Source: Runella sp. CRIBMP
Lineage (GTDB): Bacteria > Bacteroidota > Bacteroidia > Cytophagales > Spirosomataceae
Reading direction: 5' to 3'
DNA length: 64,000 nt
Assembly (NCBI RefSeq): GCF_009905605.1
Contig: NZ_JAAAKZ010000014.1
Coordinates: forward strand, 62,001-126,000
In this document: positions 2,050-42,670 of the stretch, in pieces
Layout: every line of letters begins with the position of its first letter
How positions within the stretch are numbered: position 1 is the first letter of the stretch
Position numbers and translations under genes: made by a program
The notes under the pieces: generated by a model
Seen by the model: only the letters and a program-made list of their open reading frames with translations
Databases searched by the model: none
What the model was told of the DNA's origin: nothing

Positions 2050-2181
2050 GGCTAACGGTGCAGAGCTTGGCGAAGGTGGCGAATACGAAGTACAAAGCTT
2101 TCTGTCAGCACTATACTTGATACGAAGAACAAAGCTTCAATTAATAACTGGAACCGCTTTTTTGCCAAACCCATGTTATGC
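2050..2181 (-). repeat. attC-like palindrome (132 bp)
   Basis: Imperfect palindrome between the GIY-YIG and OLD genes. On the minus strand it opens with GCATAAC, which contains the TAA stop of the GIY-YIG gene, and closes with GTTAGCC, 23 bp before the OLD start. The arms pair through TTGGC-type and GCG blocks. The GTTAGCC arm carries extra bases next to the core, so the hairpin is asymmetric. The middle holds the family motif ACTTGATACGAAG(A/C)AC, also seen near 29080. Confidence 0.75.
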
Positions 2182-28873: not shown

Positions 28874-29032
28874 GATGATTTTAAGAGATTGTTTTATGCT
28901 GCAAACGTAATAAATTTTTATTGATAAACAATAAAAATTTAGTGTTTTTAGGAAATTGCGAAAAAGTAGGGCCTTTTGTCTTATCGGAGTTGTCAGACAG
29001 TTAGGATTGGCTGGGTTGTCTGTTACCATGAA

Positions 29033-29165
29033 GGCTAACGTTCAAGGCTTTGCGTTCGGGCGGGATTTTTTGCACCACACTTGATACGAAGCACCACAGT
29101 TCAAATATAGCAAAAAGCGTCAGACGAAGCAATGAACCCCGCCTGACGCAAAACCGCTCTTAGCC
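29033..29165 (-). repeat. attC-like palindrome (133 bp)
   Basis: Follows the stop of the TfoX-like gene by 10 bp. Inverse core GGCTAAG (one base off AAC), core GTTAGCC. The arms pair through a TTTGCGT-type block and GGCGGG. The middle contains the ACTTGATACGAAGCAC motif shared with the 2050-2181 site. Confidence 0.72.
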
Positions 29166-29175
29166 GTTCGTTGTT

Positions 29176-29529
29176 TTATTTTGTCTTCCGTTTCTTTGAT
29201 GATTTGGCGACTTTGTTATAGTCAAGGCATAAGTTTAAGAAAAATTCAAAGTCCATTCTGTCTTTAAACCCGTCTGGATTTATGTAGCAGTAGCCTTTGT
29301 ATTCTTTACCTTTCATCAACATTGTCTCATAACCAACTTTTTCCGAAAGTTCTTCTTGTCGGCTTGGGTCAAAACGCAACATTAAATTTTCACCACTTAC
29401 ACAAACACAAGTTTTTCCGTTTGCCATAAAGTTTAGAACATTGAACATTTCTTTTTCTTCAATGTCTATGCCTGGTATTTCGGCAAGAAATTCTCTAACT
29501 CTGTCAGCAAGATATGGGTCATAAGCCAT
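29176..29529 (-). CDS. TfoX N-terminal domain protein
   Basis: 117 aa. The whole protein is a TfoX-N domain: FLAEIPGIDIEEKEMFNVLNFMANGK, seen near residues 14-40, then LMLRFDPSRQEEL and FKDRMDFEFFLNLCLDY. TfoX proper regulates competence in gammaproteobacteria. Stand-alone N domains like this are common in integron cassettes and have no known role. The stop is 10 bp before the attC-like site. The VOC gene ends 9 bp upstream, so the two are co-transcribed. Confidence 0.82.
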   Translation of the reverse strand: MAYDPYLADRVREFLAEIPGIDIEEKEMFNVLNFMANGKTCVCVSGENLMLRFDPSRQEELSEKVGYETMLMKGKEYKGYCYINPDGFKDRMDFEFFLNLCLDYNKVAKSSKKRKTK

Positions 29530-29538
29530 AAATGAAAA

Positions 29539-29913
29539 TTATTTACGTGAATGAAGCCCTACTGTATTGCCTTCTGTGTCAATGAATATAGAGATAAAAC
29601 CAAACTCGCCAATATTCATTTTAGGTTGTACCACTTTTCCGCCTGCTCCTTCAATTCTTTGTTCTTCAGCTATATTGTCTTCGGTCTCAAAGTATATAAC
29701 TGTATTGTTACCACTTGGAACAAAATCTGCTTTCTCCACCAATGCGCCTGATATGTCGTGGCTTTCAGGGCTAAAAGGAAAGAATGATTGCTTACCCCAT
29801 TCAATGGATGCATCTGTCAACTTTACATTGAAAACTGTTTCGTAGAATTTTTTTGCTCGGTCTAAGTTTGCCACATTGAGGTCAAACCAACCAACTGGAT
29901 TTACATTTGCCAT
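29539..29913 (-). CDS. VOC/glyoxalase-superfamily protein
   Basis: 124 aa from the ATG at 29913 (MANVNPVGWFDLNV). The upstream start adds nine residues. One VOC half-module pair: NLDRAKKFYETVFNVKL, then FGFISIFIDTEGNTVGLHS with the usual C-terminal Glu. The superfamily includes glyoxalases, dioxygenases and resistance proteins. The function here is unknown. No attC-like site separates it from TfoX-N or from the AraC gene, so all three may be one multigene cassette. Confidence 0.8.
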   Translation of the reverse strand: MANVNPVGWFDLNVANLDRAKKFYETVFNVKLTDASIEWGKQSFFPFSPESHDISGALVEKADFVPSGNNTVIYFETEDNIAEEQRIEGAGGKVVQPKMNIGEFGFISIFIDTEGNTVGLHSRK

Positions 29914-29998
29914 TTTGCTATGATTTTTAAGTTTTTGCACTATTGCGATGCAAAGGTAGAATCAACCAAAACGGCAAAATTGTAAAAATGGGACAAGG

Positions 29999-30817
29999 CT
30001 ATTTTTTGTCAAAAATCAACGACATTTTTAGGCTGTCTCCGAAAAATTCCTTTGGTGTCAATCCCGTAAATTCCTTGAATTCTTTAATAAAATGAGCTTG
30101 GTCAAAATAGTCGTTTTCATAAGCCAAGTCAGTTAAACTATTAATCTCTTCGTTCAGTAATACTTTTAAGGTTTTCTGAATTCTAATTGTCTTTGCGAGT
30201 TGTTTTGGGCTTAAGCCAATAGCGGAAGAAAATTTTCTTGCTAATTGTCTTCGGTTAATATTATTGTTCTTTGAAAATACATTTACAGAAAATTGTCCAT
30301 TGGTATTAAATATTGTTTCAACAGTTGATTTAACGATATTGTCAATTGTTTTTTTATCGGCCAATTTTTTTAAAAGAAAGGTCTCGATAATTTGGATTCT
30401 TTCAGATGTAGAGTTAGCGTTTAAGATTTGATTACCAATTTTCCTGCCTTCTTCTCCAAATAATATATCCAATGGAACCGCTTTGTTTTCCATTTCCTTC
30501 ATTGGAATTGATGTAAACGGTAAAAACCCATTTGGTTTGAATTGCACAACAAAACTACCTGTTACACCAACGGGCTCAATCACATAGGGCTTTGTCAATT
30601 GTCCAATTAAAAAGCATTTTGGTAAAATTGTTATCTCGCCATTTTGAGAATGGTATTTATAAGTGTCGCCATAATGAAAAATCAATTTCATTGTTCCGTC
30701 TGGCACGATAGTGTTTTTGAGAGGTATATTTTCCTTTTCACCATCTAATGTCCAATACCGTATAACAAACTCTGTCAGTTCGATATTTGGCTCATATGTT
30801 TTCGGATTTAACTCCAT
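29999..30817 (-). CDS. AraC-family transcriptional regulator
   Basis: 272 aa from the ATG at 30817 (MELNPKTYEPNIEL). The upstream reading crosses the degenerate attC-like palindrome. N-terminal DUF6597-like sensor domain (YWTLDGEKENIPLKN, VVQFKPNGFLPF), C-terminal pair of helix-turn-helices (NINRRQLARKFSSAIGLSPKQLAKTI; DYFDQAHFIKEFKEFTGLTPKEF, each given as a landmark). It probably controls the neighbouring VOC/TfoX-N genes. Confidence 0.85.
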   Translation of the reverse strand: MELNPKTYEPNIELTEFVIRYWTLDGEKENIPLKNTIVPDGTMKLIFHYGDTYKYHSQNGEITILPKCFLIGQLTKPYVIEPVGVTGSFVVQFKPNGFLPFTSIPMKEMENKAVPLDILFGEEGRKIGNQILNANSTSERIQIIETFLLKKLADKKTIDNIVKSTVETIFNTNGQFSVNVFSKNNNINRRQLARKFSSAIGLSPKQLAKTIRIQKTLKVLLNEEINSLTDLAYENDYFDQAHFIKEFKEFTGLTPKEFFGDSLKMSLIFDKK

Positions 30818-30860
30818 TGTCAATTTTATGTACGTTGTCTTTTTACAATGAAGACTATTG

Positions 30861-30982
30861 GTTGTGTTTCTGCAGTGGTGCCTTTCGAAAGCCGCGTTCT
30901 GTCCCACGAAACTAAAAGTTGAACAAAGTTAAAACTTTAAACCAACTCGTCGCGGCACCATTACAGAAACATTTTGTTGCAC
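30861..30982 (-). repeat. Degenerate attC-like palindrome
   Basis: Follows the DinB gene stop by 13 bp. Inverse core GTGCAAC at 30976-30982. The arms TGTTTCTGCAGTGGTGCC and TGTTTCTGTAATGGTGCC pair well, but the expected GTT core at the low-coordinate end is lost. The inverse core and its flank resemble the 5' end of the DinB cassette (GTTGTGC at 31498 downward). Confidence 0.55.
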
Positions 30983-30995
30983 GTTCATTTTTGTT

Positions 30996-31463
30996 TTAAC
31001 TTAATTCGGTCGTAAATGCTCGTCCTCTTGATAAAGTCAAAGAAATTTGTCCTGCGTGATGAGAGTTATGGAAAAGAATATGTGAGAAAAGTCGCATTCT
31101 GGAAACTGTTCCAAAAAATGGTGTGTCAGTCGTCAAAGACCAATCCTCGTCTCTTGAAGTGTCTATTAAATTTTCAAGCATTTTATATCCTATATTAATA
31201 TATAATTTACTTGTTTCAATTTCATAGTCCTGCCCTATGTCTTGTTGTCCCATCGTAGTATTTTGAATATTGGACGGAACACCAAGAAAGTAGCCAAACA
31301 AATTCATAGTTTCTCCAATATGCCTATAAATAAATCCGATAGAGGCAGTTTCATTATTTAACTTATATCTTTTGTTCTCGTTAGTCACTCTGTCCAAAGC
31401 ATATGAGTTAGTAATCATATTTTGAAATAACATTTCTCGAAGTAATTCTTTTTGACTATTCAT
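30996..31463 (-). CDS. DinB-family protein
   Basis: 155 aa, a four-helix DinB/YfiT-type bundle. Metal-ligand histidines are plausible in YRHIGETMN and HILFHNSHHAGQ. Family members are metal-dependent thiol transferases or hydrolases, and many are of unknown role and frequent in integron cassettes. The start lies 28 bp from the preceding attC-like site. Confidence 0.8.
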   Translation of the reverse strand: MNSQKELLREMLFQNMITNSYALDRVTNENKRYKLNNETASIGFIYRHIGETMNLFGYFLGVPSNIQNTTMGQQDIGQDYEIETSKLYINIGYKMLENLIDTSRDEDWSLTTDTPFFGTVSRMRLFSHILFHNSHHAGQISLTLSRGRAFTTELS

Positions 31464-31491
31464 ATAGATATTTTGTGTTTAACAAAATGAC

Positions 31492-31623
31492 GCACAACGT
31501 TTCGGGGCTTTGCGTTTGGGCGGGTTCCAAAGCACAAATGCCCAATTTATTACTAAAATTCATTAGAAGCACAAAGCTCCAAGTTTGCACATCTGCCCGC
31601 CTGATGAAAACCTCTTGTTGAAC
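31492..31623 (-). repeat. attC-like palindrome (132 bp)
   Basis: Inverse core GTTCAAC (a perfect RYYYAAC), core GTTGTGC. The arms share TTTGCG and GGGCGGG blocks, and the inner motif AGAAGCACAAAGCT matches the middle of other sites. The cassette that should end here has been replaced or interrupted by the Xer/IS91 remnant that starts about 60 bp away. Confidence 0.72.
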
Positions 31624-31679
31624 AAAACCTTCGGTAGCTATCTTGCCTTAAAAGGATTAATTTTAATGCCAATTTAAAC

Positions 31680-32640
31680 TTAAAATTGAGCATGACAAAA
31701 AAAGAATTCTGATGATCTACGTGAGAACAATCTTATCAATCGTGCCGGCCGAGAAGTGCCTGGCTCTGAGGAATTAATCCATCGTTTTGAGCGGAGTATT
31801 TCCATACTGGGTCGCAGTCCAAGCACCTTTAAAAATTATTCACAACATATTGCGGCCATATCTCTTCATTATGGCAAAATCCCCACCGAGCTTGACAAAG
31901 AAGAGCAGGTTCATCGCAGCGGCGCACCGTGAATATTTATTTATGCTCCAAAAGCGGAGCCCAACCCCTTCACAAACCTATTTCAAGCATATGGTTTATG
32001 GTCTTCCTTTCTTGCTCAAAACAGAAGGGCTTCCCTATAGTTATCTTCTTTTGCCTGCGATAAAAACGGCAAATAAACTGTCTGTGGTACTGAGTAAGCA
32101 GGAAGTTTGGGCACTGCTCAAAGCGTGTAGCTTACTCAAACACAAGGTGCTAATTGGTTCTGTTGTATGGATGTGGTTTGCGCTGTTTGGAAGTTCGGAG
32201 TGTAAAATTGGCCGATTTAGACTTTGACCGTCTCCAGCTAAAAGAAGTGCAGGGTAAAGGCAAAAAAGATAGATATGTGCCTCTTAGTGAGCATCTCATT
32301 CGAGGGCTTAAAATTTATATCTCAGCCGAAAGGCCCATGGAATACCTTTTTGGCGCAGTAAATATTGTAGACCGCGCGGGCGGTGATTTCGCTTCTCGTT
32401 ACAGCCAGAAAGGGGTACAGTGGGCTGTGAAAGATGCCAGTTAAAAAGCGGGTATATTGAAGGACATACACGTACATACCCTGCGCCACACTTGCGCCAC
32501 CCATCTGCTGGAAGATGGCATGGATATAATCAGTGTCAAAAACTTTCTGGTACATGAAAATATCGAGACCACGATGTTGTACCTGCTTGTAGCTCAGTTG
32601 AAAACCAAACCCGTTTTTAGACCACTTGACACGTTGTTTT
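31680..32640 (+). pseudogene. Broken tyrosine recombinase (IS91-associated)
   Basis: Joined from three frames it reads as a Xer-type recombinase: core-binding part around 31770-32070 (SPSTFKNYSQHIAAISLHYG; FLLKTEGLPYSYL), catalytic Arg in YGCGLRCLEVRSVKL, Lys region GKGKKDRYVPL, box II HTLRHTCATHLLEDG. Frameshifts near 31925 and 32170, an early stop at about 31710 and a stop at 32442-32444 break it. The usual final GH...Y segment is altered to VHENIETTMLYLLV. Confidence 0.82.
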
Positions 32641-33186
32641 CGCAGTGCAGCCTGTTTGGGAAGTAGCCCATGTGCTGGGTCGGCTGGGCGATGGCATTGC
32701 AGATTTAGCGTTAAATAGTTGGCAACTGTGCACCTTGCGAGTGATACAGCATGGCAGGACTTCGGTTATGGGTGGCCATAGGGGGCCGCCCGCGCGGTTG
32801 ATGTGTTTGATGCCTGCGGCCACATTACTATCAGTTACAATTCTTGCCGCAATCGTCACTGCCCTAAGTGTCAAGGCTACAAGCGAGAAGAATAGATACA
32901 GTCACGAGAGGCAGATTTATTGCCTGTACCGTATTTTAACGTGGTATTTACATTGCTATATGAGTTATATCCATTGGCACTGCATTACCCCAAAGCGGTG
33001 TATGATGCGCTGTTTGGGGCTGCTTGGCAGGTACTGGAAACTTTTGGCAAGCAGAAGGGCTTGCAAATGGGCATAATTGCGGTGCCGCCACCGAAGGTTT
33101 CGTTCAATCCTGAACGCTTTCGGGAGTTTCATGGCTGGGCTTTCAGCCACCACGAAACCTTAGTTATTGGTGGCTGGCATTTTTAA
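32641..33186 (+). pseudogene. Broken IS91-family transposase
   Basis: Fragments in two frames: WQLCTLRVIQHGRTSVMGGH, then in another frame the zinc finger SCRNRHCPKCQGYKREE, and VVFTLLYELYPLALHYPKAV. The HUH/Y2 catalytic region is missing after a truncation near 33110. A rolling-circle transposase of the IS91 type when intact. Only about a third remains. Confidence 0.78.
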
Positions 33187-33200
33187 TTAGATGAATCGCT

Positions 33201-33560
33201 TTAACAGAATTGGTCTCCTATTGTTTTTGTAATTACTGAAGTTATTTTTCCTGTATGTTCAGTGGTTTTAGATTCAATAAGCATAATTAGACACTCTTTT
33301 TTTGAGGAAACTCTGTGTTTTTTTCCTTTATTTACAACAAACAAATCGCCTTTTTTCAATATCAGGTCTGGCTGATTTTCAATTTCCATTAGAAGTGTAC
33401 CTTTTGCAATATAGAATAATTCATCTTCATTTTCGTGATTATGCCAAGGCACTTCTTGCCCCTTTATTTTTACGACTTTAAAATATTGGTCATTTACTTC
33501 ACCTATAATCCTTGGTGAAAAATAGTTACCAAGACTTGAAAACGCATCTTTCAAATTCAT
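33201..33560 (-). CDS. Cupin-domain protein
   Basis: 119 aa, a single cupin barrel with both motifs: HNHENEDELFYIAKG and LKKGDLFVVNKGKKHRV. The His/Glu ligand set for a metal is present. Small cupins of this type are dioxygenase-like or regulatory; the function is unknown. Its start overlaps the end of the CPBP gene by four bases, so the two form an operon. Confidence 0.8.
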   Translation of the reverse strand: MNLKDAFSSLGNYFSPRIIGEVNDQYFKVVKIKGQEVPWHNHENEDELFYIAKGTLLMEIENQPDLILKKGDLFVVNKGKKHRVSSKKECLIMLIESKTTEHTGKITSVITKTIGDQFC

Positions 33561-34414
33561 CTTTTAAACAGTTTTCCTTTTACAATTTTACCCTCTCTTT
33601 TTGCCAGATAATAAAATATGATTCCAATAAGCAATAAAAAAGTTACTGTAAAAATGGAATCTTCAATTCCAACTGCACCACCTGTTAATAGTTCAGGGCC
33701 ATTAAATTTGGATTGAATTATACTGCCCATATTATTTAGCCCCGAAAGATTTGAGCCATAAAATGGCTGTGAAAAATTCCAGCCTAAATGGAAGAAAAAA
33801 GGCAGCCATATTCTTTTAGTATAGATAAACATCATTGCCATAGTAAACCCCCAAATTAAAGTAAGAAAATGACTAAATAGGTTGAAATTTGGATTGAAAA
33901 AGTGTTGTTGAAGCTCAACTAACATTGCAATGACAATGGTTAGATGAGTTCCTAACCAATTTTCACAGACACGAACTATTAACCCTCTATGAAACAGGTC
34001 TTCTACTATGGCCGCAAACATTAAAAACGTGAAAAATTTGATGGGGTAGTGAGCTGTTGTAATACTAAATGCTTGATAATACCCTAAGACGTATAAAATG
34101 AAAATAACGAATGAAATTGCAAAAAAACCAAAGAAAAACCCTCCAAACATTTCTTTAAAAAAGTATTTTAGGGATAGCTCTGTTATTTCTCTTTTATCAT
34201 AAAAACGGAATAAATAGTAATAAGAGGTTAATAAAACAATAAAAGAAATAATGTGAATAATTGGATTAGCAATATTTTTATCTTGAATAATACTATAAAA
34301 AAAAGGTTTCAAAACAAAGTTTTGAATTACGACAAATAGCGAAAAAGGAACGACAATGCCTACGATAATTTTTGTTATTGGAAAATGCAGGACTTTTTTA
34401 ATTGATGCATTCAT
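33557..34414 (-). CDS. CPBP-family intramembrane metalloprotease
   Basis: 285 aa with seven or eight membrane helices. The active-site motifs of the CAAX/bacteriocin-processing protease family appear in order: EDLFHRG (normally EExxxR, here ED), FSHFLTLIWGF, and HLGWNFSQPF with the C-terminal His. Such proteases cleave within the membrane and often give bacteriocin immunity or process peptides. Divergent from the HxlR gene, which may control it. Confidence 0.78.
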   Translation of the reverse strand: MNASIKKVLHFPITKIIVGIVVPFSLFVVIQNFVLKPFFYSIIQDKNIANPIIHIISFIVLLTSYYYLFRFYDKREITELSLKYFFKEMFGGFFFGFFAISFVIFILYVLGYYQAFSITTAHYPIKFFTFLMFAAIVEDLFHRGLIVRVCENWLGTHLTIVIAMLVELQQHFFNPNFNLFSHFLTLIWGFTMAMMFIYTKRIWLPFFFHLGWNFSQPFYGSNLSGLNNMGSIIQSKFNGPELLTGGAVGIEDSIFTVTFLLLIGIIFYYLAKREGKIVKGKLFKR

Positions 34415-34554
34415 TGTTTCTTTTGATTTATTGTAAGTAAAATTTTATACAAAGAAAACTCCTTATTATCTTTACAGCAAGTACATACAATAAAGTAGCC
34501 TACATACTAAAATGATACTATTGTTGATTATCAATATTTTAAACTTATAAATAA

Positions 34555-34878
34555 ATGAAGAATAATATTAAAAAGGCACATTGTGCAGTTGATTATGCTT
34601 TCCAACGAATAGGTGGAAAGTACAAGGGCCGAATTTTATGGATATTGAGAGATGGTTTTTTGAGATATGGGGAATTAAAAAGAGCAGTAGTGGGTATAAC
34701 ACCCAAAATGCTTACTCAAACGCTAAAAGAATTGGAAGCCGATGAACTAATTGTTAGAAAGGTTTATTTAGAAGTTCCACCGAAGGTTGAATATTCACTT
34801 ACGGATACAGGAAAAGAATTAATTCCGTTTATTAGTCAAATGAGAAGTTGGGGTGAAAAGCAAATGTCAACAAATTGA
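34555..34878 (+). CDS. HxlR-family winged-helix regulator
   Basis: 107 aa: GGKYKGRILWILRDGFLRYG, ITPKMLTQTLKELEADELI and a wing VPPKVEYSLTDTGKEL, the standard HxlR layout. Plus strand, opposite to the cassettes on either side and divergent from the CPBP/cupin operon (140 bp of shared upstream DNA), which it probably represses or activates in response to a small molecule. Confidence 0.85.
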   Translation: MKNNIKKAHCAVDYAFQRIGGKYKGRILWILRDGFLRYGELKRAVVGITPKMLTQTLKELEADELIVRKVYLEVPPKVEYSLTDTGKELIPFISQMRSWGEKQMSTN

Positions 34879-34942
34879 AACTTACAATGCTGAGGGTGTT
34901 GGGATACGCTTACCACCAGCGGAGGGTAAATGTGTGCAGTCT

Positions 34943-35159
34943 GTTGGGCGAAGTTGAATAAAAAAGACAATATATATCAAGACTCATTTGTTTACAATTC
35001 AAGATTTTTTCAAAATCTTTTGCCATTGAGGCAAATGTTTCTCTTTAGAAAATTCTTTTCTTCTTTCATCATCTTGCCTCAATGTCCTGAAAATCTTTTA
35101 GATTTATGAATTGTAAACCCATCTTCTGCTTCGTCTTTTTTTATTCAATTTTGCCCAAC
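34943..35159. repeat. Palindromic non-coding cassette (217 bp)
   Basis: The ends are inverted repeats of 26-27 bp starting GTTGGGC(G/A)AA(G/A)TTGAAT and running into A/T runs. An inner pair of TTTACAATTC/GAATTGTAAA arms and a TTGCC-based hairpin lie within. No credible ORF. It spans from a GTTGGGC core to GCCCAAC, the start of the 35153-35287 attC-like site, so it looks like a gene-less cassette able to fold as one long hairpin. A partner of the same design lies at 36240-36463. Confidence 0.7.
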
Positions 35160-35287
35160 GGTTTGCGTATTGACGATGGTGGGGCATTTCAAAAACGTCA
35201 GCCCAACATTTGCACAAATGATTAATAGAATTACAAATGTTGAATTTATAACTGTCAGTCCCACTATGGCCAATACAATGCTTAGCG
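35153..35287 (-). repeat. attC-like palindrome (135 bp)
   Basis: Inverse core CGCTAAG, core GTTGGGC. The arms pair as GTATTGACGATGGTGGG with GTATTGGCCATAGTGGG. The inner element CGTCAGCCC is shared with the 36457, 38307 and 40673 sites. It follows the stop of the 35297-35719 gene by 9 bp. Confidence 0.75.
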
Positions 35288-35296
35288 GGTCGTTGT

Positions 35297-35719
35297 TTAT
35301 TCATTTGTCTGTTTTAATTTCCATTTTTTTAGTCCGCCAATCAAAAACAGAAGTCCAATAAAAACTGCAATTAGTGAATAGGTTATTTCCAAAAACTGGT
35401 TTGCTTGTTGTTTTTCCAAGTCAAATATGAGTTCTCCAAATCCACGAAGTAGATAAATTCCTGCTATCATAAAAATCACTGGTTTCAAAAATGGAAGTGG
35501 TCTAAACTTATTGTCAGCCGAAAACCCATATAACCCAAAAATAAAAAATACGAATGTTACAAAAATTGTCAGTAAATACGGCAATGTAGAATGCGTTTGA
35601 GCAAGTTCTGTCATTTCTTTTCCAATTCCTGTTACTTCAAACATTTTGTCAGCCCAAAAAAGTCCAACTATATGTCCAATTGCAATAACTATATTTATGT
35701 ACCCACCAAGTTTAAGCAT
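35297..35719 (-). CDS. Small four-helix membrane protein (cassette gene)
   Basis: 140 aa with four hydrophobic segments (about 5-25, 47-68, 77-98, 112-132). No recognised family. Shares its cassette with the gene upstream (gap 8 bp); its stop lies 9 bp from the attC-like site. Confidence 0.65.
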   Translation of the reverse strand: MLKLGGYINIVIAIGHIVGLFWADKMFEVTGIGKEMTELAQTHSTLPYLLTIFVTFVFFIFGLYGFSADNKFRPLPFLKPVIFMIAGIYLLRGFGELIFDLEKQQANQFLEITYSLIAVFIGLLFLIGGLKKWKLKQTNE

Positions 35720-35727
35720 ATGTTATA

Positions 35728-36126
35728 TTAATTTGTTCCAAAGTAAATAAGTCCGCTAATTAGCAACAGTAAAATCCATTGTCCAAGTTTAAAATAGTTT
35801 TTAGGAAACTGTTTTGAAATTGCAATTGTCAAAACCCAAACCACTGCATAGCCTAAAAAGTATATTGTTAGTATTTGCAAAAATAGTTTTTCGTTGTCAA
35901 AGTAGTTGGTAAAGTTAATCAGCCCGAGTCCGATTGTAGCAAAAAGTAAGTCAAACGAAACCCAATGCCAACCACATCTTGCCATGGTCCATTTTTCTCT
36001 TTTGTGAAAATTCTCATCATTTCCGTATGTCGGTTCGTTTACTTTTAGTTCTTTATCGCCAATAAAAGTGTGAACTACAAAAGCTAAAAGTGTCAATATG
36101 TTGGCTATTAAAATTAGTATGTTCAT
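35728..36126 (-). CDS. Small four-helix membrane protein (cassette gene)
   Basis: 132 aa with four membrane helices and a conserved-looking loop WTMARCGWHWVSFDLLFATIG between the first and second. No family recognised. First gene of a two-gene cassette; its start is 31 bp after the attC-like site at 36158-36246. The pair may work together in the membrane. Confidence 0.65.
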   Translation of the reverse strand: MNILILIANILTLLAFVVHTFIGDKELKVNEPTYGNDENFHKREKWTMARCGWHWVSFDLLFATIGLGLINFTNYFDNEKLFLQILTIYFLGYAVVWVLTIAISKQFPKNYFKLGQWILLLLISGLIYFGTN

Positions 36127-36157
36127 ATTTTCTGTTTTCTATGTTTCTTTCCATTGC

Positions 36158-36246
36158 CGCTAACAGATTGGGGATTACCGAAGTCCCCTGAAATAGAGAC
36201 CCATTAGGTCGAAATGAAAGGGGGTTTCGGTAATCCCCTGTTGTAC
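36158..36246 (-). repeat. Short attC-like palindrome (89 bp)
   Basis: Inverse core GTACAAC, core GTTAGCG. The arms GGGGATTACCGAAGTCCCC and GGGGGTTTCGGTAATCCCC pair almost perfectly. It separates the two-gene membrane cassette from a non-coding palindromic cassette. Its GTTGTAC end matches the GTACAAC at 36457, not its own other end. Confidence 0.72.
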
Positions 36247-36463
36247 GAAGTTGAGGTGGTAGGAAAAGTGGCCTAAAGCTCGCCAAGCCGGAACGAAAAA
36301 ATATTTTGCAAATCTCAGATTTGCGACGTCTTTTTTCGTGGTTTTTGGCTAACTTCGCCGCTGCTTCAAAGCCTCTGGCTTACGCCCCCGCGAAGTTAGC
36401 CCAAAAACGGCACACCTGCTCCACAACTGGCCTAAGGATGATCCCACCTCGATTTTGTACAAC
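36240..36463. repeat. Palindromic non-coding cassette (224 bp)
   Basis: Terminal inverted repeats starting GTTGTACGAAGTTGAGGTGG on one side and GTTGTACAAAATCGAGGTGG on the other, followed by GGCCTAA blocks in both. A second, inner hairpin GGCTAACTTCGC/GCGAAGTTAGCC occupies the centre. No credible gene. The beginning of the left arm, with CGAAGTTGA after the core, is shared with the 34943-35159 element. Confidence 0.7.
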
Positions 36464-36587
36464 GAACAGGTATTTAAGAAGGATTGGAATTTGAAAAACG
36501 GATGTTCAGTTACCTTCAAAAGCCAAATAGCATTCCAAAAGCGGAATTACTTCCGTCAGCCAGTCCTTATTAAATACCATGTTGGTG
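36457..36587 (-). repeat. attC-like palindrome (131 bp)
   Basis: Follows the metalloprotease gene by 68 bp. Inverse core CACCAAC, core GTTGTAC. The arms pair through GGTATTTAA(G/T)AAGGA(T/C)TGG, with two extra bases next to the core in one arm. The cassette whose end it forms starts with the same seven bases (GTTGGTG at 38313 downward) and matches over 14 positions with one difference. Confidence 0.77.
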
Positions 36588-36655
36588 GCTGCTGCTACTT
36601 TTGCAATCCAACTGTCCGTACAATCATGAAATAATTTGAAAGCCCCATATCATTG

Positions 36656-38272
36656 TTATTTTTTCTCAAAAGTAATTACATCGCCATCATTACTACGGGC
36701 TGTATAAGTTATAGTAATGCCCTGATATGTTATCGTTTGGGCAACGCTCATTGTTGCTTGATGTTTTTTGGTGTCAGTTTCATTGATAGGCAAAACTTTC
36801 ACGGCACCATTTCCAGAGGCTATACTGGCATCTACCAAGTAAACCAAAGGGCCTTCTTTTACCAAATTTTTGTCGTAGCCCAGCTTTCTTCTACTTTCCA
36901 CCACAATCGTTGATTTGGTATCAATCGGTATAGTCAATAACTTAACACCCCCTGCGGTTTCGATAGGGGTCAAGGTAACAGACCCATTACCCACATTGCC
37001 TTGGCATACTATTTGATTATCATCCAACCAACCCAATGTCCAACGTTCCCAACCTAAAAATTCAGGAGCGATGCCACTAATCAAACCCATAAGGCTATAA
37101 TCACCTACAAATCTATGCTGTGTTCCATTATAAGGATACAGATCGACAAGACCTAAATTATGCCCAAATTCATGAGCAAATAATAATCCTTTTGGCCAAT
37201 CTTTCAATGCTTTACCAGAAGTGAAAGCGTTATTCACAAACTTGCCGTCCACATTGATTCCGCTTGCGTTACTGTTTGAGTTCCATGCGGCCGCACCTGC
37301 CAAGGGACTATTGTTTGGGTCAGTGACGACATAAACATGGCTATATTTAGAAAAATCAACTTTTGGATTTGCTAAGGAAATTGCCTCTTGGATATAAGCT
37401 TTATGGTCTGCAAAAGTAGAAAATGAATAAGAAGTACCTGGTTTGCTCATCCTGAACCATTCAAAGGTAGGTTCTAACTCTAACTTTAATTTGTTGTAAG
37501 ACATTGTCTTTAAAAAATCTTCTGCTTCTGGTGAGATATAAGTATCAAAGATTTCTTTTGGAGTTTTCGTCGCAATAGCCTCGTTAAAATCAACAAAAAT
37601 AATACCCACTTTCACTGTTCCAGTTGAAGGAACTCGATATTGATTATTGGTAAATCCGACCACAACAGGACTGTTGAATGTAGATTGTATCTTGCATGAT
37701 GTTACGTTGGGGCTGTTAAATACGAACCCCGCCAATGTAGCATTTCCACTCGGAGTAGTTACAACGATGTCTCCGCTATTACCAGTACCCACGACCGCCG
37801 TGATAGTGGTGGCATTATCAACTTTGAATGAAGATGCAGCTACCCCACCAAACGTTACAGCTGTTGCCCCAGTGAAATTAGTACCTGTGATGGTAATGAT
37901 TGAGTTGGTTGTTCCACTTTTGGTACTAATTGATGCAATGGTAGGAGGCGGATTCACAAAGGTAAACCCTGATAGTTTGGCAGTACCTGTCGGAGCAAAT
38001 ACTGTAACTTCTCCACTTGCTCCGATACCGACTTTAGCTGTGATGGTAGTGGCATTGACAACTGTAAATGAAGAAGCTGCCACTCCGCCAAAGGACACGG
38101 ATGTCGTACCTATAAAATTTGCTCCAACAATCGTTATGTCGGTGCCAGTAGTTCCTGATGTAGGCGAAAAAGATATAATTTGTGTTGGCGTAGGTAATGG
38201 TGTTTCGACCGTTTTTTTACAGCTTGAATAAAGCAAACTGATTAGAATTAAGTAAAAGATTGTTTTTTTCAT
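36656..38272 (-). CDS. Lipoprotein metalloprotease with two IPT/TIG domains
   Basis: 538 aa. Lipoprotein signal with lipobox LYSSC near residue 18. Two IPT/TIG Ig-like domains (about 25-110 and 110-195; each has the pattern GTTxxxxTGTNF...VxFGGxxASSF). Then a peptidase domain of the M6/gametolysin-like kind with zinc motif FAHEFGHNLGLVD, a downstream DYSLMG turn and a closing beta-sandwich. It is likely surface-anchored and degrades extracellular protein. At 1.6 kb it is the largest cassette gene in this array. Confidence 0.8.
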   Translation of the reverse strand: MKKTIFYLILISLLYSSCKKTVETPLPTPTQIISFSPTSGTTGTDITIVGANFIGTTSVSFGGVAASSFTVVNATTITAKVGIGASGEVTVFAPTGTAKLSGFTFVNPPPTIASISTKSGTTNSIITITGTNFTGATAVTFGGVAASSFKVDNATTITAVVGTGNSGDIVVTTPSGNATLAGFVFNSPNVTSCKIQSTFNSPVVVGFTNNQYRVPSTGTVKVGIIFVDFNEAIATKTPKEIFDTYISPEAEDFLKTMSYNKLKLELEPTFEWFRMSKPGTSYSFSTFADHKAYIQEAISLANPKVDFSKYSHVYVVTDPNNSPLAGAAAWNSNSNASGINVDGKFVNNAFTSGKALKDWPKGLLFAHEFGHNLGLVDLYPYNGTQHRFVGDYSLMGLISGIAPEFLGWERWTLGWLDDNQIVCQGNVGNGSVTLTPIETAGGVKLLTIPIDTKSTIVVESRRKLGYDKNLVKEGPLVYLVDASIASGNGAVKVLPINETDTKKHQATMSVAQTITYQGITITYTARSNDGDVITFEKK

Positions 38273-38306
38273 ATTTGGGATGTTTATTAAGTTGATTTAC
38301 AGTAGC

Positions 38307-38500
38307 CACCAACGTACAGGGCTTGTGGTCAGGTGGGGGTTTTGAAACTCGTTCGCCCGAACGTCTGCCGATGTAAAATACTGATGCTGAGTTACTTACA
38401 AATATTCAATAGGTTTCCGTCCGCCGAAACAAAAGTACATAAAATTACGAATGTTCAATTACTTTCGTCAGCCCCCACTTGCCACAAATCCATGTTGGCG
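38307..38500 (-). repeat. attC-like palindrome (194 bp)
   Basis: Inverse core CGCCAAC, core GTTGGTG. The arms CCAACGTACAGGGCTTGTGG and CCAACATGGATTTGTGG align with two extra bases in the first, and then share GTGGGGG. CGTCAGCCC occurs in the inner part. Longer loop region than the 132-bp sites. It follows the stop of the 38525-39016 gene by 24 bp. Confidence 0.75.
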
Positions 38501-38524
38501 GTAGTTTTTATTTTCTCGCAATGC

Positions 38525-39016
38525 TTATGTCCTGCTATAAATTGTCAAGTCGCAACTTAATGCAATAACGAAAGTGTCGCCAGTCTCGGAAAATCCAAAT
38601 GCTCTTAATTCACAAGCACCATCCTTACAAATAAATTTCTTTTCTGTCCCGTCAGGCGATAATAAATAAATTTTTTGGACTAAATATTTCTCAAATGGTC
38701 TGTCGTCTGGTTCGGGTTCAGATATAATCAAAGTCCAATTGTCTTGTGTTGTCTTTGCTAAGTTGTCGCTGCCATAAAGTCCATAAGTCTTTATTTCAAT
38801 ATTTTCTAAAATGTCAAAACCTACGATTGAATTTGTCGATTGGTCGAATTTGTCCCACCAATTTGAATCATTGTTCAGTCTTGCAATTTTTTCTCCCGTT
38901 TTGCAGTTAAAGATTCCCTGTCCCTGACTTGATAAAACGATTAAAAAGTCTTCTTTGTCTGCGTACCCAATGTTTTCAAGTCCACCAATAGCAAAAGTGT
39001 TTTTGTGTGTCCACAT
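38525..39016 (-). CDS. Hypothetical cassette protein
   Basis: 163 aa, soluble, no signal peptide, unrecognised. Pattern of repeated beta strands (AIGGLENIGYADKEDFLIVLS; TFVIALSCDLTIYS), so probably a beta-rich fold, perhaps propeller-like. Start 22 bp after the 39039-39170 site and stop 24 bp before the next: a single-gene cassette. Confidence 0.65.
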   Translation of the reverse strand: MWTHKNTFAIGGLENIGYADKEDFLIVLSSQGQGIFNCKTGEKIARLNNDSNWWDKFDQSTNSIVGFDILENIEIKTYGLYGSDNLAKTTQDNWTLIISEPEPDDRPFEKYLVQKIYLLSPDGTEKKFICKDGACELRAFGFSETGDTFVIALSCDLTIYSRT

Positions 39017-39038
39017 GAGGTCTTTTTTTTAAAATTAC

Positions 39039-39170
39039 TGCCAACGGACAGGTATTGCCGAAGGCGGGGTTTAGAATTGCTAATGCTTGGTTAAAGTACA
39101 AAAGTTTATAGAAATACCAAAAGTTTGGATTATGTACTGAAGCCCCGCTTTTGGCAATACCTTGTTGGCA
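39039..39170 (-). repeat. attC-like palindrome (132 bp)
   Basis: Inverse core TGCCAAC, core GTTGGCA. The arms pair as GGTATTGCCGAAGGCGGGG with GGTATTGCCAAAAGCGGGG, two extra bases near the core in one arm. One of the clearest members of the family. It lies 6 bp after the stop of the PhzF gene. Confidence 0.8.
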
Positions 39171-39176
39171 GTAGTT

Positions 39177-39965
39177 TTATTCTGTCCAAAATTTTCCAAT
39201 TGAATATGTTTTTGCTTGCCCACTAATAATCACTCGGTCTCCTTTGTCTTCACAATACAACTTCCCTAATCGTTCAGAAACTTGTTTGGCATAAAGTTCT
39301 TTTTTATTAAGTCTTTTTGACCAAAATGGAATTAAAGAACAATGTGCAGAACCTGTTACAGGATCTTCTAGAATTGATGCTTGTGGTGTAAAAAACCTTG
39401 AAACGAAATCGCATTTATCACCAACTGCTGTTACAATTACACCTCCTGGGTCAATATTTATTTGGTCGAATAATTGTCTATCAATTTCAATGTTTCTAAC
39501 TTCTGTTTCATTTTCATACACCAAAACATAGTCTCTTGATTTTAAAATTTCTTTCGGTTGAATATTTAAGGATTTTGAAATTGTCGGTGGTAAGATGTCG
39601 ACAACAGGCATTCTTGATGGGAAGTTCATTTTATATTTTCCATTTTCAATTTTGACAATTAAGTCGCCACTTAAAGTTTCAAACACAATTTTATCTTTCT
39701 TATAGTCAAGAATTGTCGCTAAACTATGAGCAGTTGCAAGTGTAGCGTGACCGCACAAATCCATTTCAATTTCAGGCGTAAACCATCGTAAATGGATTTT
39801 TTCTCCTTTGTCAACAAAAAAAGCAGTTTCAGCAACTGCGTTTTCTTTTGCTATTTTCAACAAGATTTCGTCTGACAACCAATTGTCAAGTGGCACAACA
39901 CAAGCAGGATTTCCTCCAAAAATTGTGTCTGTAAATGCGTCAATTTGATATATATTATGTTTCAC
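39177..39965 (-). CDS. PhzF-family epimerase/isomerase-like protein
   Basis: 262 aa from the GTG at 39965. A longer reading starts inside or beyond the attC-like site and adds residues without family character. Both PhzF halves are present: YQIDAFTDTIFGGNPACVV with the catalytic Glu in ENAVAETAFF, MDLCGHATLATAH, and DPVTGSAHCSL in the second half. The family includes diaminopimelate-epimerase-like isomerases and phenazine PhzF. The substrate is unknown. It ends 6 bp before its attC-like site. Confidence 0.85.
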   Translation of the reverse strand: MKHNIYQIDAFTDTIFGGNPACVVPLDNWLSDEILLKIAKENAVAETAFFVDKGEKIHLRWFTPEIEMDLCGHATLATAHSLATILDYKKDKIVFETLSGDLIVKIENGKYKMNFPSRMPVVDILPPTISKSLNIQPKEILKSRDYVLVYENETEVRNIEIDRQLFDQINIDPGGVIVTAVGDKCDFVSRFFTPQASILEDPVTGSAHCSLIPFWSKRLNKKELYAKQVSERLGKLYCEDKGDRVIISGQAKTYSIGKFWTE

Positions 39966-39985
39966 TATGTTCTGTTTAAAATTAC

Positions 39986-40117
39986 TGCTAACGTTTTGCC
40001 GCTTTGCGAAGGCGGGGTTTTTCAGCACTAAACTTCATTAGATGCACAAAGCTTGAATTTAGCACTTCACAGTCATAGAAGCACGAAACCTCAGCTTTTG
40101 CAAAACGGCTGTTATAC
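39986..40117 (-). repeat. attC-like palindrome (132 bp)
   Basis: Inverse core GTATAAC, core GTTAGCA. The arms pair through CG(C/T)TTTGC(G/A)AA. The inner part repeats the AGATGCACAAAGCTTG-type motif. The GTATAAC inverse core matches the GTTATAC that begins the same cassette at 40679 (identical 7 bases, 15-bp match with one difference outward), while its own partner arm has GTTAGCA. Confidence 0.8.
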
Positions 40118-40126
40118 ACCGTTTTT

Positions 40127-40666
40127 CTATTCTCCATTTGTTTTTACAAATCGATTTTTTATTATTTTCCATTCATTTATCAGACTGTCGAAAGCAAATC
40201 TTATGTCAGGCTGGTATCCATTTATCCCACCACAACCCACAGTAATTTCTGTTTTTTTTAAACGTATTCCTCTGCAGAAATGAAGTTTTCTTTTTCCTGT
40301 AAATCCTATATAACTAAAATTTATGTCAACCGTGTCCTTGGATATTATGTTGTGAACAATTCTTAAAACATTAATTGTCCGTTTCTCTTTTATTGATAAG
40401 TCAATTAATTCGTCTGTCGTCAGAAATTTATACCTGTCAGGCACGATTAAGTTTTTAATTCTGCTTCCGTATTCGTTCATTTCAACGTAATGCCATCCAC
40501 TCTGCAAAAGCAAATCAATCCTATTGTTTAAAGCTTTCACATATAAACTGTCCAATATATCTGGTTCAATTTTATTTATGAGACTTCCGTCTTCGCCAAG
40601 TTTGTTTTCTTGTCCGAAAGTCAAAAATCCTATTAGTATCAATATGATTGTTAGTGTCGTTCTCAA
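40127..40666 (-). CDS. Secreted hypothetical cassette protein
   Basis: 179 aa with a signal peptide (MRTTLTIILILIGFLTFGQ). Mature protein unrecognised; it ends ITVGCGGINGYQPDIRFAFDSL. Its start is 6 bp after the preceding attC-like core, the tightest spacing in the array, and its stop 9 bp before the next. Confidence 0.65.
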   Translation of the reverse strand: MRTTLTIILILIGFLTFGQENKLGEDGSLINKIEPDILDSLYVKALNNRIDLLLQSGWHYVEMNEYGSRIKNLIVPDRYKFLTTDELIDLSIKEKRTINVLRIVHNIISKDTVDINFSYIGFTGKRKLHFCRGIRLKKTEITVGCGGINGYQPDIRFAFDSLINEWKIIKNRFVKTNGE

Positions 40667-40672
40667 AATGGT

Positions 40673-40869
40673 GTATAACGAAAAAGGCTTGGCGTTGTTG
40701 GGGAATTAGCATTCCGTCAGCCCATAACCAAAGCCCAATGATTGCAATATTGCTGATGTTTTATTCATAAGCCAAATTTATAACGTCAATCCCGAACTGA
40801 AGCACAATAAAGAACAAATGCTGAGGCAGTATTCGTCAAGCCCCAATAATGCTAAACCTAATGTTGGCT
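40673..40869 (-). repeat. attC-like palindrome (197 bp)
   Basis: Inverse core AGCCAAC, core GTTATAC. The arms pair as GGCTTGGCGTTGTTGGGG with GGTTTAGCATTATTGGGG. Internal CCGTCAGCCC and CGTCAAGCCCC elements. It closes the first cassette after the recombinase; its AGCCAAC inverse core matches the GTTGTCT junction at 41496-41502 in six of seven bases. Confidence 0.75.
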
Positions 40870-40881
40870 GCTGTGTTTCTT

Positions 40882-41418
40882 CTATTTGAGTTTCTCTTTT
40901 TTCAAAACTTCATCGAGAATATATGATTTTACAACCTCGTAGTTATTTGTTGGAACTCCATCAAAATTGTCATCATTAAAATCGTGGTGAACAGTTCTGT
41001 CCCAATAAACTTCATATTCAATAATTGGGAAATATTTCGGTGTTTCAGTTATCCAAAAATTTCCAAAACCACCTGAATATGCTCCAACAGGTTTAAAGTA
41101 ACCATTGAAAATTCTTCCTTCAACTGTCTGAAACATAAAACTTCTCATTTTCAACTTGTCTATAGAAAATGGATTAATTATGTTTAGTCCTAAAAACCCA
41201 AAGACCAAAGTCAGACATATTATTGCAACAGATTTAGAATATACTTTTAAAACCCTATTGGTTTGTCCTGGTTTAAATGTAAGTCGGTAAGAATAAATTG
41301 CTAGAACTACTGAGAATATTATGTCTGTCCAATAACCGACAAAAGAAAAGTCTGAAATTGTAATAAAAATCAAATAGATCAAAAATAAACTTGGAATAAT
41401 TACAGTCTTTGATTTCAT
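40882..41418 (-). CDS. Membrane hypothetical protein, first cassette
   Basis: 178 aa with three hydrophobic helices in the first 90 residues (LFLIYLIFITISDFSF; IIFSVVLAIYSY; VAIICLTLVFGFLGL) followed by a soluble C-terminal half. Unrecognised. It is the gene nearest the recombinase, the position of the most recently acquired cassette in a classical integron. About 78 bp separate its start from the junction core. Confidence 0.65.
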   Translation of the reverse strand: MKSKTVIIPSLFLIYLIFITISDFSFVGYWTDIIFSVVLAIYSYRLTFKPGQTNRVLKVYSKSVAIICLTLVFGFLGLNIINPFSIDKLKMRSFMFQTVEGRIFNGYFKPVGAYSGGFGNFWITETPKYFPIIEYEVYWDRTVHHDFNDDNFDGVPTNNYEVVKSYILDEVLKKEKLK

Positions 41419-41479
41419 TCTAAGTCGTAAATATTGTTAAAAGTGTCAAATAAGTAATAAGAAATTTCGGAATTTAGAG

Positions 41480-41512
41480 TTTTTTCTAACATAGCAGACA
41501 ACATCTGTGTTT
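41480..41512 (-). promoter_or_regulatory. Candidate attI-like insertion junction
   Basis: Minus-strand GTTGTCTGCTATGTT (core at 41496-41502) matches the other end of the first cassette, GTTGGCTGCTGTGTT (40863 on), at 13 of 15 positions. No hairpin partner lies on its high-coordinate side, as expected for an attI site rather than an attC site. The remainder of the intergenic stretch 41419-41614 is AT-rich and otherwise featureless. It lies 112 bp after the recombinase stop. Confidence 0.45.
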
Positions 41513-41614
41513 ACGCTACTTTCTCTTTGTTATTGCGTATATATCGGCATTGAGCGAGGGGAACGTAGTTTTACAAAGTGATTGATTGTTGCTATCAAAC
41601 ATACTATCCTCAAT

Positions 41615-42670
41615 TTATATTTCCAAAGTATCCAACGGACTTTTTATTTGGTCAAATCCTTTGGTAGTGAGGTGAGTATAAATTTCAGTGGTCTTGCTGC
41701 TTTCATGCCCCAACAGGAGTTGAATGTAGCGTAAATCGGTGCCGTTTTCGAGCAGGTGCGTGGCAAAACTGTGCCGAAGCGTATGCACTGTAACATTTTT
41801 TTTGATGCCTGCTCTTTGGCATGCTGCTTTCAGAATCTGTTGAATAGATCGTGCCGAATACATGGGCGCGTCTTGCCCCTCAAACAAATAGTCAATGGGC
41901 TTATACTGTATGTAATACTTTCGTAACAATTCCAAGGCTTTGGGCGATAGCAGCGTATAACGGTCTTTTTTGCCCTTTGATTGCTCTATGCGTATTTGCA
42001 TTCGATGGGAGTCTATGTCTTTGATTTTGAGTCGAATCGCTTCGCTAATTCGTAACCCTGAAGCGTAAATAAGGCTTAGAATCATTTTGTGCTTGAGGTT
42101 CTGAATCGTATTCAATATCCGCTGTACCTCATCGCTGCTGAGCACCACTGGCAGGGCTTTGTCGCGTTGGGGCCGTTGGAGGGCATAAAACCGCCGCTTA
42201 CCGCCCAGTACTTTTTCATAATAAAACTTGATGGCATTGATGGCGGTGTTTTGGGTAGAAGCAGACACCTTGCGTTCAAGGACCAAATAGCGACAGAATT
42301 CAATGATTTTCTTTTCGTCTATCTCATCAATGGCATCCAGCGGAAAGTGATTGATAAACTCCTCAAAAGCTACTCCGTAGGATTTGATAGTCGTGCTGCC
42401 GTCTTTATCTTCATAATTACGTGTTTTGATTTTACCTTCAATATAGACCAAACTTCCTTTTTGGAGGTATTTGGCTGCTAAATCTGCCAAACTACGCCAT
42501 ATAACGATATTGTGCCATTCGGTTTGAGTGTGGTTTTGTCCATTTTTGTCTTTGAAAATTTCAGTTGTGGCCAGCGAAAACTTTGCTACGCTTATGCCGC
42601 CTTCTAAGGCCTGAAATTCAGGCACATTTCCAAGGTTTCCAATTAAAGTGACGCGGTTAAGTCCTCTCAT
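41615..42670 (-). CDS. Tyrosine recombinase with N-terminal SSB-like domain
   Basis: 351 aa from the ATG at 42670 (MRGLNRVTLIGNLG). Residues 1-92 are an SSB OB fold of ordinary bacterial type: TEWHNIVIWRSLADLAAKYL and KGSLVYIEGKIKTRNYEDKDG. The last OB strand and the acidic C-terminal tail of SSB are missing. Residues 93-165 are the latter part of a core-binding domain (TTIKSYGVAFEEF onward). The catalytic domain is complete: Arg207 (SGLRISE), Lys in GKKDR near 232-235, His296/Arg299 (HTLRHSF), His322 (LLGHES) and Tyr331 (IYTHL). It lacks the extra segment that integron integrases have before the HxxR box. Adjacent to the cassette array and co-oriented with it, so the likely cassette recombinase. 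Confidence 0.88.
   Translation of the reverse strand: MRGLNRVTLIGNLGNVPEFQALEGGISVAKFSLATTEIFKDKNGQNHTQTEWHNIVIWRSLADLAAKYLQKGSLVYIEGKIKTRNYEDKDGSTTIKSYGVAFEEFINHFPLDAIDEIDEKKIIEFCRYLVLERKVSASTQNTAINAIKFYYEKVLGGKRRFYALQRPQRDKALPVVLSSDEVQRILNTIQNLKHKMILSLIYASGLRISEAIRLKIKDIDSHRMQIRIEQSKGKKDRYTLLSPKALELLRKYYIQYKPIDYLFEGQDAPMYSARSIQQILKAACQRAGIKKNVTVHTLRHSFATHLLENGTDLRYIQLLLGHESSKTTEIYTHLTTKGFDQIKSPLDTLEI

Follow-up and report, generated by a model that had tools for sequence, protein, structure and literature searches.

Integrons such as the class 1 integrons and the Vibrio superintegron have an attI site beside the integrase gene, cassettes ended by hairpin attC sites, a boundary at a GTT core, accessory cargo and turnover of their contents; intI is typically divergent and has a Pc promoter, and the attC core consensus is RYYYAAC and GTTRRRY. 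The insert of IntI is held to be the innovation that enabled a tyrosine recombinase to act on single-stranded hairpins (PMC7790495) and, according to a survey of recombinases, it is incompletely conserved in the integron-like subgroup (PMC8138268). For Bacteroidota, the IntI-based IntegronFinder 2.0 gave only In0 elements earlier and then a complete integron in Salinibacter (PMC9024848); reviews count the phylum among those that bear integrons, their accessible text giving none of the details of the family treated here (PMC8618304, PMC9668308), and the eleven taxon-specific attC models described in the available text of another report include none for Bacteroidota (PMC8352920). The locus analyzed here lies in a stretch of 64,000 nucleotides of Runella sp. 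CRIBMP (Spirosomataceae; contig NZ_JAAAKZ010000014.1, positions 62,001 to 126,000), referred to as the window, whose minus strand carries an array (29028-41502) laid out as a recombinase gene, an attI-like site and then cassettes closed by attC-like palindromes. This system very probably functions as an integron whose recombinase belongs to a family other than IntI. Established from sequence are its anatomy, the signature of circular cassettes, the attI site, the identity of the family, the phylum-wide association of sites and recombinase, and a cassette boundary common to other arrays.

The attI site, hairpin cassettes, GTT boundary, cargo and turnover are all shared with the IntI integrons, from which the system differs in that the recombinases are insert-less, form a separate clade and use another core consensus, and in that the integrase gene is co-oriented with the cassettes, with attI behind its 3' end. 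In the window, mostly co-oriented minus-strand open reading frames (ORFs) are interleaved with palindromes from 41502 to 29028, and the recombinase gene heads the array on the same strand. The initial annotation had remarked on this co-orientation, which holds in the window and its relatives; it is not a unique trait, since in Treponema integrons intI is also transcribed toward attI, in the same direction as the cassettes (PMC3607928). Those integrons nevertheless use intI, whereas the recombinase described here often carries repeats at its N-terminus and, within one family and order, often has a gene for a single-stranded DNA-binding protein (SSB) beside it.

The closest solved structure to the window recombinase is VchIntIA (2a3v), whose alignment has a gap where the IntI insert lies; the alignment with XerA has none. 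The insert, that is, the I2 helix region of about 42 residues, is absent from the family, as the initial annotation had proposed for the window: the distance that separates the second box from the catalytic Arg (R-to-H), measured only in rows with both motifs, is 89-94 in 58/58 rows (including two Bacillota rows outside the clade) versus 131-132 in 7/7 IntI; XerA-like and other recombinases are likewise insert-less, with spacings of 87-98. The catalytic residues R, K, H-R, H and Y are invariant in 18/18 rows, the window included. The window protein reaches 231 bits against TIGR02249, the IntI profile (cut-off 265), and 223.4 bits against NCBIfam NF040815 XerA (cut-off 220). In a tree built by a quick method without bootstrap, a 55-row Bacteroidota family (SH-aLRT 96) is separate from IntI (seven rows, 99); two Bacillota rows first grouped with the family fall outside it, and one row labeled Spirochaetota falls inside. 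A row from the same genome as the window, L003, groups with IntI at 80; it is the recombinase of an IS91-type element and forms a long branch. The system had been proposed to be separate, convergent or ancestral, and of these the separateness from IntI is borne out, while the tree does not polarize the choice between convergent and ancestral. The window protein is above the cut-off of NF040815, and some members of the family are annotated accordingly as XerA or as 'site-specific tyrosine recombinase/integron integrase', but that model is named for archaeal XerA and is silent on cassettes, and the family clade stands apart from the XerA-like rows. The 'Integron-like' subgroup of tyrosine recombinases, compared by description only, likewise contains integron integrases, but its accessible text describes no cassette arrays of insert-less members (PMC8138268). 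At the N-terminus, one to three W-x(6)-W repeats per protein, HARP-like in character, were found by regular expression in 15 of the 17 relatives of A1; of nine proteins compared with Pfam HARP (PF07443), four match at E up to 1, with L036 above the cut-off (32.4, cut-off 25) and three below it.

The attC-like sites were searched with a covariance model (A2) built from 34 hand-chosen palindromes of a stem scan, so that the pair counts of this model favor structure. It gave 140 matches at E up to 0.1 and 118 at E up to 0.001, of which 110 were carried into the analyses; one match each in L035, L036, L040, L049, L061, L063, L081 and L090 was left out. In the window, nine minus-strand palindromes within 29028-40873 were matched (E 1.7e-22 to 5.3e-4), six of them independent, since those at 39034, 36452 and 29028 went into the model; a generic palindrome scan by itself did not distinguish the weak window palindromes from shuffles. 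The R''-to-R' length is 130-134 bp in six of the nine, in agreement with the 131-135 bp first noted for most of them, and departs from it in three (193-196 bp in two, 122 bp in one). Similarly, the short distance to the preceding stop codon, first put at mostly 6-25 bp, is 3-21 bp up to the model match in 7/8 sites with an assigned stop, and 65 bp in the remaining one. The RYYYAAC-like and GTTRRRY-like cores of the initial annotation turned out to be too loose a description: across the window and its relatives the classical cores are rare (RYYYAAC in 7/108 sites, GTTRRRY in 8/108), and GTTR is found in 106/108. Paired cells amount to 84.4% versus 61.0% in shuffled data and 31-44% for slid partners, and double-changed cells, one measure of covariation, number 174 versus 67. 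An A.C mismatch at the stem column pair 27/117, which is a G.T pair on the opposite strand, occurs in 27 of the 34 model members, and the bottom strand has the more stable fold in 77/110 sites (three ties; p 1.4e-7), which fits the use of the bottom strand as the substrate. Other forms of attC may exist at some loci: L038 and L039 (G040, a 9-Mb genome) have two family recombinases, each followed by runs of short co-oriented ORFs, with no SSB gene and with some palindromes of about 80 bp, and L061 (Rufibacter) has at 11676-20033, 3' of its recombinase, fourteen co-oriented ORFs of 122-315 aa with few model matches.

If a cassette has been a circle cut at the GTT, the bases after the GTT at its start complement the R'' of its own attC and not that of the site that they touch. 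Consecutive site pairs match 6/6 in 56 of 75 cases, with a mean of 5.21, compared with an average of 2.96 between both arms of a single linear site and 2.64 in shuffled pairs, and none of 10,000 shuffles was as high; the test is independent of how the sites were picked for folding, and it omitted two core-less matches (window 30848, L081 15315) and pairs more than 4.5 kb apart. The seven window pairs match in 6, 5, 5, 6, 0, 4 and 3 of 6 bases, that is, 6/6 in two and 5/6 in two, and some of the misses outside the window are gaps with an undetected site (e.g., L029 near 14240, L031 near 10109). This pattern is as expected if cassettes move as circles cut at the GTT. The same logic applied to the R'' of the first attC predicts attI: a GTT with a 6/6 match was found in 15/18 loci, 42-301 bp past the stop of the recombinase or of its partner ssb, with weaker matches in the window and L062 (5/6 each) and in L031 (3/6); L046, which has no AAC, was dropped. 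The attI flanks have a common TTGCGTATATAC ahead of the GTT, and in leave-one-out scoring, from which L031 and L046 are absent, the predicted site ranks first in 13/17 loci and second in 4/17; at other family loci the best attI score within 450 bp ranges from clear to none. Together with the array detected by the model, these two signatures confirm the integron cassette layout recognized in the initial annotation. Turnover is also apparent, since in the fetched stretches the sole window cassette with a counterpart is a PhzF-like gene (89.5% aa identity), which is about the tenth in the array of the sister genome G010, and cassette contents differ between sisters while a neighboring amidase stays 82-97% identical.

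On plasmids, members of the same family precede resistance genes. Directly upstream of tet(X3), 3/3 fetched records (A. baylyi, A. indicus and pHH1107) have a truncated recombinase of the family, annotated 'xerD'; its identity to L034 is 74.5% over residues 51-289 of the query in one comparison and 77% in another, and to the window 69%, and the tree puts it inside the supported group of the window. Among 190 GTTs in 12.7 kb, that of the attI-like site between 'xerD' and tet(X3) has the top score, and tet(X3) is followed by an attC truncated at its 3' end; the circle match of this unit is only 4/7 where a full match was sought, and tet(X3) therefore need not be the original first cassette. From these comparisons the 'xerD' beside tet(X3) is placed as a cut-off integrase of the Bacteroidota family. 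In the case of blaVEB-3, another truncated recombinase and an attI-like site precede the gene in 4/4 fetched records of Klebsiella and Aeromonas; this recombinase has its best identities to L063 (56%) and to a copy on a Chryseobacterium plasmid (59%), and no more than 47% to Xer-like or IntI rows, and a search of these loci with the model for an intact attC gave no match. In three arrays, blaVEB stands among other resistance cassettes, presumably class 1 cassettes, with an attC of the family type that is the sole model match there at E up to 10. The two VEB contexts are identical for 87 nt from the GTT onward and have 0 nt in common before it; in two records yet another left flank, the third, adjoins this GTT, and the cassette start matches its R'' in 7/7 bases; since the contexts agree exactly from the GTT, one blaVEB cassette boundary serves both platforms. 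The possibility that the palindromes are mere terminators or repeat elements between genes has very little left to recommend it: hairpins after stop codons can end transcription and the sites also occur away from recombinases, but the circle signature, the prediction of attI and the exact VEB boundary are unexpected of terminators. The tet(X3) and blaVEB-3 regions are like the arrays in the order of truncated family recombinase, attI-like site and co-oriented resistance gene, and unlike them in being annotated or described with ISVsa3/ISCR2 or IS26 neighbors. The 'xerD' next to tet(X3) was already known, with its role left open in the accessible text (PMC7473080, PMC8635130, PMC7494873). Two Bacteroidota plasmids (L182, L184) have family-like recombinases and attC-like sites together, one of them beside erm(F), and mobile versions therefore exist.

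The association of recombinase and palindromes, which the initial annotation had made the touchstone of its reading, extends across the phylum. AttC-like sites were found in 131 of 247 sampled Bacteroidota genomes and recombinases (E 1e-45 or better) in 80, and both occur in 71, sites only in 60, recombinase only in nine and neither in 107, so that sites are present in 71/80 recombinase-positive versus 60/167 recombinase-negative genomes (p 7.5e-16). The counts of one of the underlying genome surveys, which scored only 13 candidates per genome, are lower bounds. Among close relatives, 47/59 have sites; of the carried matches, three could not be placed relative to a recombinase, and of the other 107, 104 lie downstream of the recombinase on its strand, one upstream on the same strand and two upstream on the other strand. 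The 17 control loci, which have IntI or other recombinases, gave no model match at 0.001; one of them (L113) has a match at E 0.006. These data also bear on which enzyme moves the cassettes. A true IntI elsewhere in the genome, or one acquired and lost, could do so, with the adjoining recombinase incidental, in agreement with the IntI genes or integrons reported in Bacteroidetes (PMC2426708, PMC8618304, PMC9668308), and the occurrence of the VEB cassette, with its family-type attC, in arrays with presumed class 1 cassettes suggests that another integrase may handle it. Nevertheless, TIGR02249 is above its cut-off in 0/59 relatives, the conserved attI motif stands directly behind the family recombinase and the association is phylum-wide, which together make this explanation improbable. 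The predicted attI is also dif-like in look, in our reading, with two half-sites around a short spacer, and dif sites are 28 bp long. It is slightly less probable still that the host XerC and XerD act on these sites as at dif-like modules while the family recombinase has another task; Xer-dependent modules are described in Acinetobacter (PMC6449649), but the present sites are asymmetric hairpins of 122-196 bp with covarying long stems, unlike dif sites, and 104/107 of them lie downstream of the family recombinase on its strand.

Several observations weigh against an integron run by this family or qualify the case of the window. On the side of the sites, the ten or more palindromes in a row of the initial annotation are recovered in the window as nine model matches and one short hairpin, but only 4/10 fold with a z of -2 or better versus shuffles, and several attC look worn; in the model alignment, pairs changed on both sides (19 versus 16.7 shuffled, with 13/500 shuffles as high) and pair types (48 versus 43.1, 21/500 as high) exceed shuffled data only weakly. 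On the side of the recombinase, the window copy is without part of its core-binding domain, the W-x(6)-W repeat was not found by regular expression in L041 and L043, HARP matches at E 0.01 or better occur in only 5/18 and 1/22 members, and the VEB-3 recombinase has no supported place in the tree, its kinship being based on identity. With regard to distribution, there are the 60 genomes with sites and no recombinase and the nine with the reverse, and a model match at 0.001 is present in 31/62 family loci (26 from the carried list and five left-out rows), so that many members use sites unseen by the model, sit on short contigs or have none. No SSB gene was found near the recombinase at 43 named loci and at five order-level loci (L038-L041, L043), and the partner SSB is therefore a trait of part of the family and order of the window. 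Finally, the insert is described as necessary for the activity of IntI (PMC9668308, PMC7790495), and an insert-less family might therefore act otherwise.

With these reservations, the following scheme is proposed for the family. The recombinase, as the presumed catalyst, would act on a double-stranded attI that closely follows the recombinase gene and on the hairpin attC sites that end the cassettes, the latter probably as single, bottom strands, with strand exchange at the conserved GTT core. Cassettes would leave and enter as circles and be inserted after attI, oriented like the recombinase gene, and read-through may therefore express them. The N-terminal HARP-like repeats may replace the IntI insert in the recognition of the hairpin and, in the family and order of the window, an SSB without the usual acidic tail, often encoded next to the recombinase, may manage the folding of the single-stranded site. 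Such a dedicated tail-less SSB is of interest because SSB melts attC hairpins and is counteracted by IntI (PMC8946536).

The integrase gene of the window (41615..42670, minus strand) departs from this pattern in a way that the initial annotation did not describe, since it joins the oligonucleotide-binding (OB) domain of an SSB, in frame, to a tyrosine recombinase of which only the C-terminal part is present. The frame is open from a GTG at 42727 and, from the ATG at 42670, encodes 351 aa; its product has the SSB at residues 23-115, a core-binding domain without its start and the full catalytic domain. In the sister genomes G010, G003 and G002 the same locus has two genes, for an SSB of 115-122 aa and a recombinase of 536-563 aa, adjoining a 799-aa gene that is 82-97% identical to the penicillin amidase of the window. 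At the junction (42391..42394, minus strand), 988 bp of G010 (L029), comprising the ssb end, the gap and the N-terminal recombinase repeats, are missing, and both flanks align (91.5% and 92.8% identical), for which reason the fusion is taken as an in-frame deletion; this deletion took out the end of the OB fold, every N-terminal repeat and the beginning of the core-binding domain. A variant of the preferred explanation, in which the fusion is a functional innovation and the tethered SSB delivers the recombinase to single-stranded attC, draws on the open frame, the intact catalytic residues and the partner SSB beside the recombinase in relatives, but it is unlikely given what the deletion took away, the worn attI and attC sites, the splitting of the array by an IS91-type remnant and the finding of the fusion, among the loci read, in the window alone. 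Fusion as a general feature was rejected on account of the two separate genes of the relatives. An SSB match beside the recombinase match, in either order, occurs in at least 18 of the 59 searched genomes, besides the fused copy, as read by eye from the table. The acidic tip is present in none of 14 intact locus SSBs, and 12/12 housekeeping SSBs end in DDLPF; in the SSB tree, where rows L160-L162 count as locus SSBs despite their label 'other', the locus SSBs are separate from all housekeeping SSBs but one (11 of 12), and the exception, from G055, forms a long branch basal to the locus side. A second and different lesion of such a gene pair is present at L035 (G018), where the recombinase frame overlaps, at its end, with a truncated match for SSB. 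In several families a conserved gene, whose product of about 120 aa has a treble-clef-like N-terminus, lies upstream of the recombinase on the opposite strand (L036 15440-15805, oriented; L051 9244-9627; L052 9284-9661; L054 5151-5528; L056 9323-9691; L057 8296-8679; L061 9177-9533; L079 8897-9274); DUF2116 is below its cut-off in two of three tested, and the gene may be a regulator or partner.

Behind the integrase gene, the attI-like site of the window (41493..41524, minus strand, as are all features of the array unless stated) has its GTT at 41500-41502; 5/6 bases agree with the sequence that the first attC predicts for it, and the flanking motif is changed, with GCGTAAACAC instead of GCGTATATAC. 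Cassette ORF 1 (40882..41418, function unknown) is closed by a long form of the palindrome at 40668..40873 (E 1.4e-6), whose post-GTT bases complement the R'' of the next site in 6/6; ORF 2 (40127..40666), also of unknown function, is followed by the palindrome 39981..40121 (E 3.2e-19), and ORF 3 (39177..40028), the PhzF-like gene, which recurs as a cassette elsewhere in the G010 array, by 39034..39174, the most stable hairpin (z -8.6) and one of the model members. ORF 4 (38525..39016, function unknown) precedes a second long form at 38302..38504 (E 3.5e-10), and ORF 5 (36656..38272), with TIG repeats and a metallopeptidase-like part, both Pfam matches below cut-off, precedes 36452..36591 (E 4.7e-17; circle match 6/6), another model member. 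A unit without an ORF ends in the short hairpin 36158..36246, which has no covariance-model match, and a two-gene cassette without a Pfam match (35297..36126) in the palindrome 35148..35291 (E 9.5e-14), of weak fold (z 0.2). Next come genes for an Rce1-like (CPBP-type) protease and a cupin (33201..34414) with a divergent HxlR regulator (34555-34878, plus strand), the IS91-type remnant and, adjoining it, the weakly folding palindrome 31487..31627 (E 2.7e-16; z 0.1). A DinB-like ORF (30996..31463) is followed by the palindrome 30848..30979 (E 5.3e-4), whose core is degenerate and was not found, and genes for an AraC-type regulator, a glyoxalase-like protein and a TfoX_N protein (29176..30907) by the last palindrome, 29028..29169 (E 1.1e-15), a model member. 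The cargo is thus a mix of PhzF-like, DinB-like, glyoxalase, cupin and protease genes, AraC and HxlR regulators and unknowns. Outside the array, an attC-like site matched by the model (2045..2185, minus strand) belongs to a second small cluster (C6:59930-64185), and the whole genome has 22 such sites (E up to 0.1), of which 12 lie on contigs other than contig 6. On the G000 contigs C33, C19, C52, C30, C12 and C54, attC-like sites lie apart from the array, some near contig ends, like integrase-less attC clusters. Weak Rfam matches on the region (two miRNA families and one ribozyme family) were rejected, all being below gathering scores.

The IS91-type element remnant (31787..33186, plus strand) has its own tyrosine recombinase in broken open pieces and splits the array; its transposase part was matched by eye, and an intact relative is present on C1 of G000. 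Its broken recombinase (31787-32666) was considered as a divergent IntI of the array and rejected, as its pieces adjoin presumed IS91 transposase pieces; because the intact C1 relative consists of a Y-recombinase and a Y2_Tnp/Zn_Tnp_IS91 gene, it is taken as part of the inserted element. Among the copies examined (window 31787-33186; L140 12290-14271; L163-L166, L168 and L169), the strand opposite the element's recombinase carries an attC-like site in 6/6 copies outside G040, at a distance of about 130-150 bp upstream of the partly inferred recombinase start, and 0/9 G040 copies have one within 300 bp; the element may target attC sites. With the deletion in its integrase, its altered attI, its few well-folding sites and this remnant inside it, the window copy reads as a decaying integron, and the array is probably no longer, or only poorly, active.

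In the literature searched, in which subscription papers and preprints were mostly outside coverage, no description of this insert-less recombinase cassette system was found. A second family with integron anatomy and no insert makes the idea of the insert as innovation testable. Half of the sampled Bacteroidota genomes carry sites, against the survey picture, in its available text, of In0 elements and Salinibacter only (PMC9024848), and the 'xerD' beside tet(X3), whose role was left open in the accessible text (PMC7473080), is placed here in an integrase family. The gene-capture platform appears to be a source of resistance cassettes now on plasmids of hospital bacteria, and since blaVEB shows one cassette boundary in both platforms, the arrays deserve attention as a reservoir when resistance is surveyed. 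In summary, the balance tips slightly toward a view in which cassette recombination on single-stranded hairpins evolved twice, or before the I2 helix, in a Bacteroidota-wide lineage whose Xer-like recombinase lacks the insert and has HARP-like repeats instead, with a dedicated tail-less SSB in one family and order, and in which this lineage would also be a reservoir of cassettes, blaVEB and probably tet(X3) among them, for proteobacterial plasmids.

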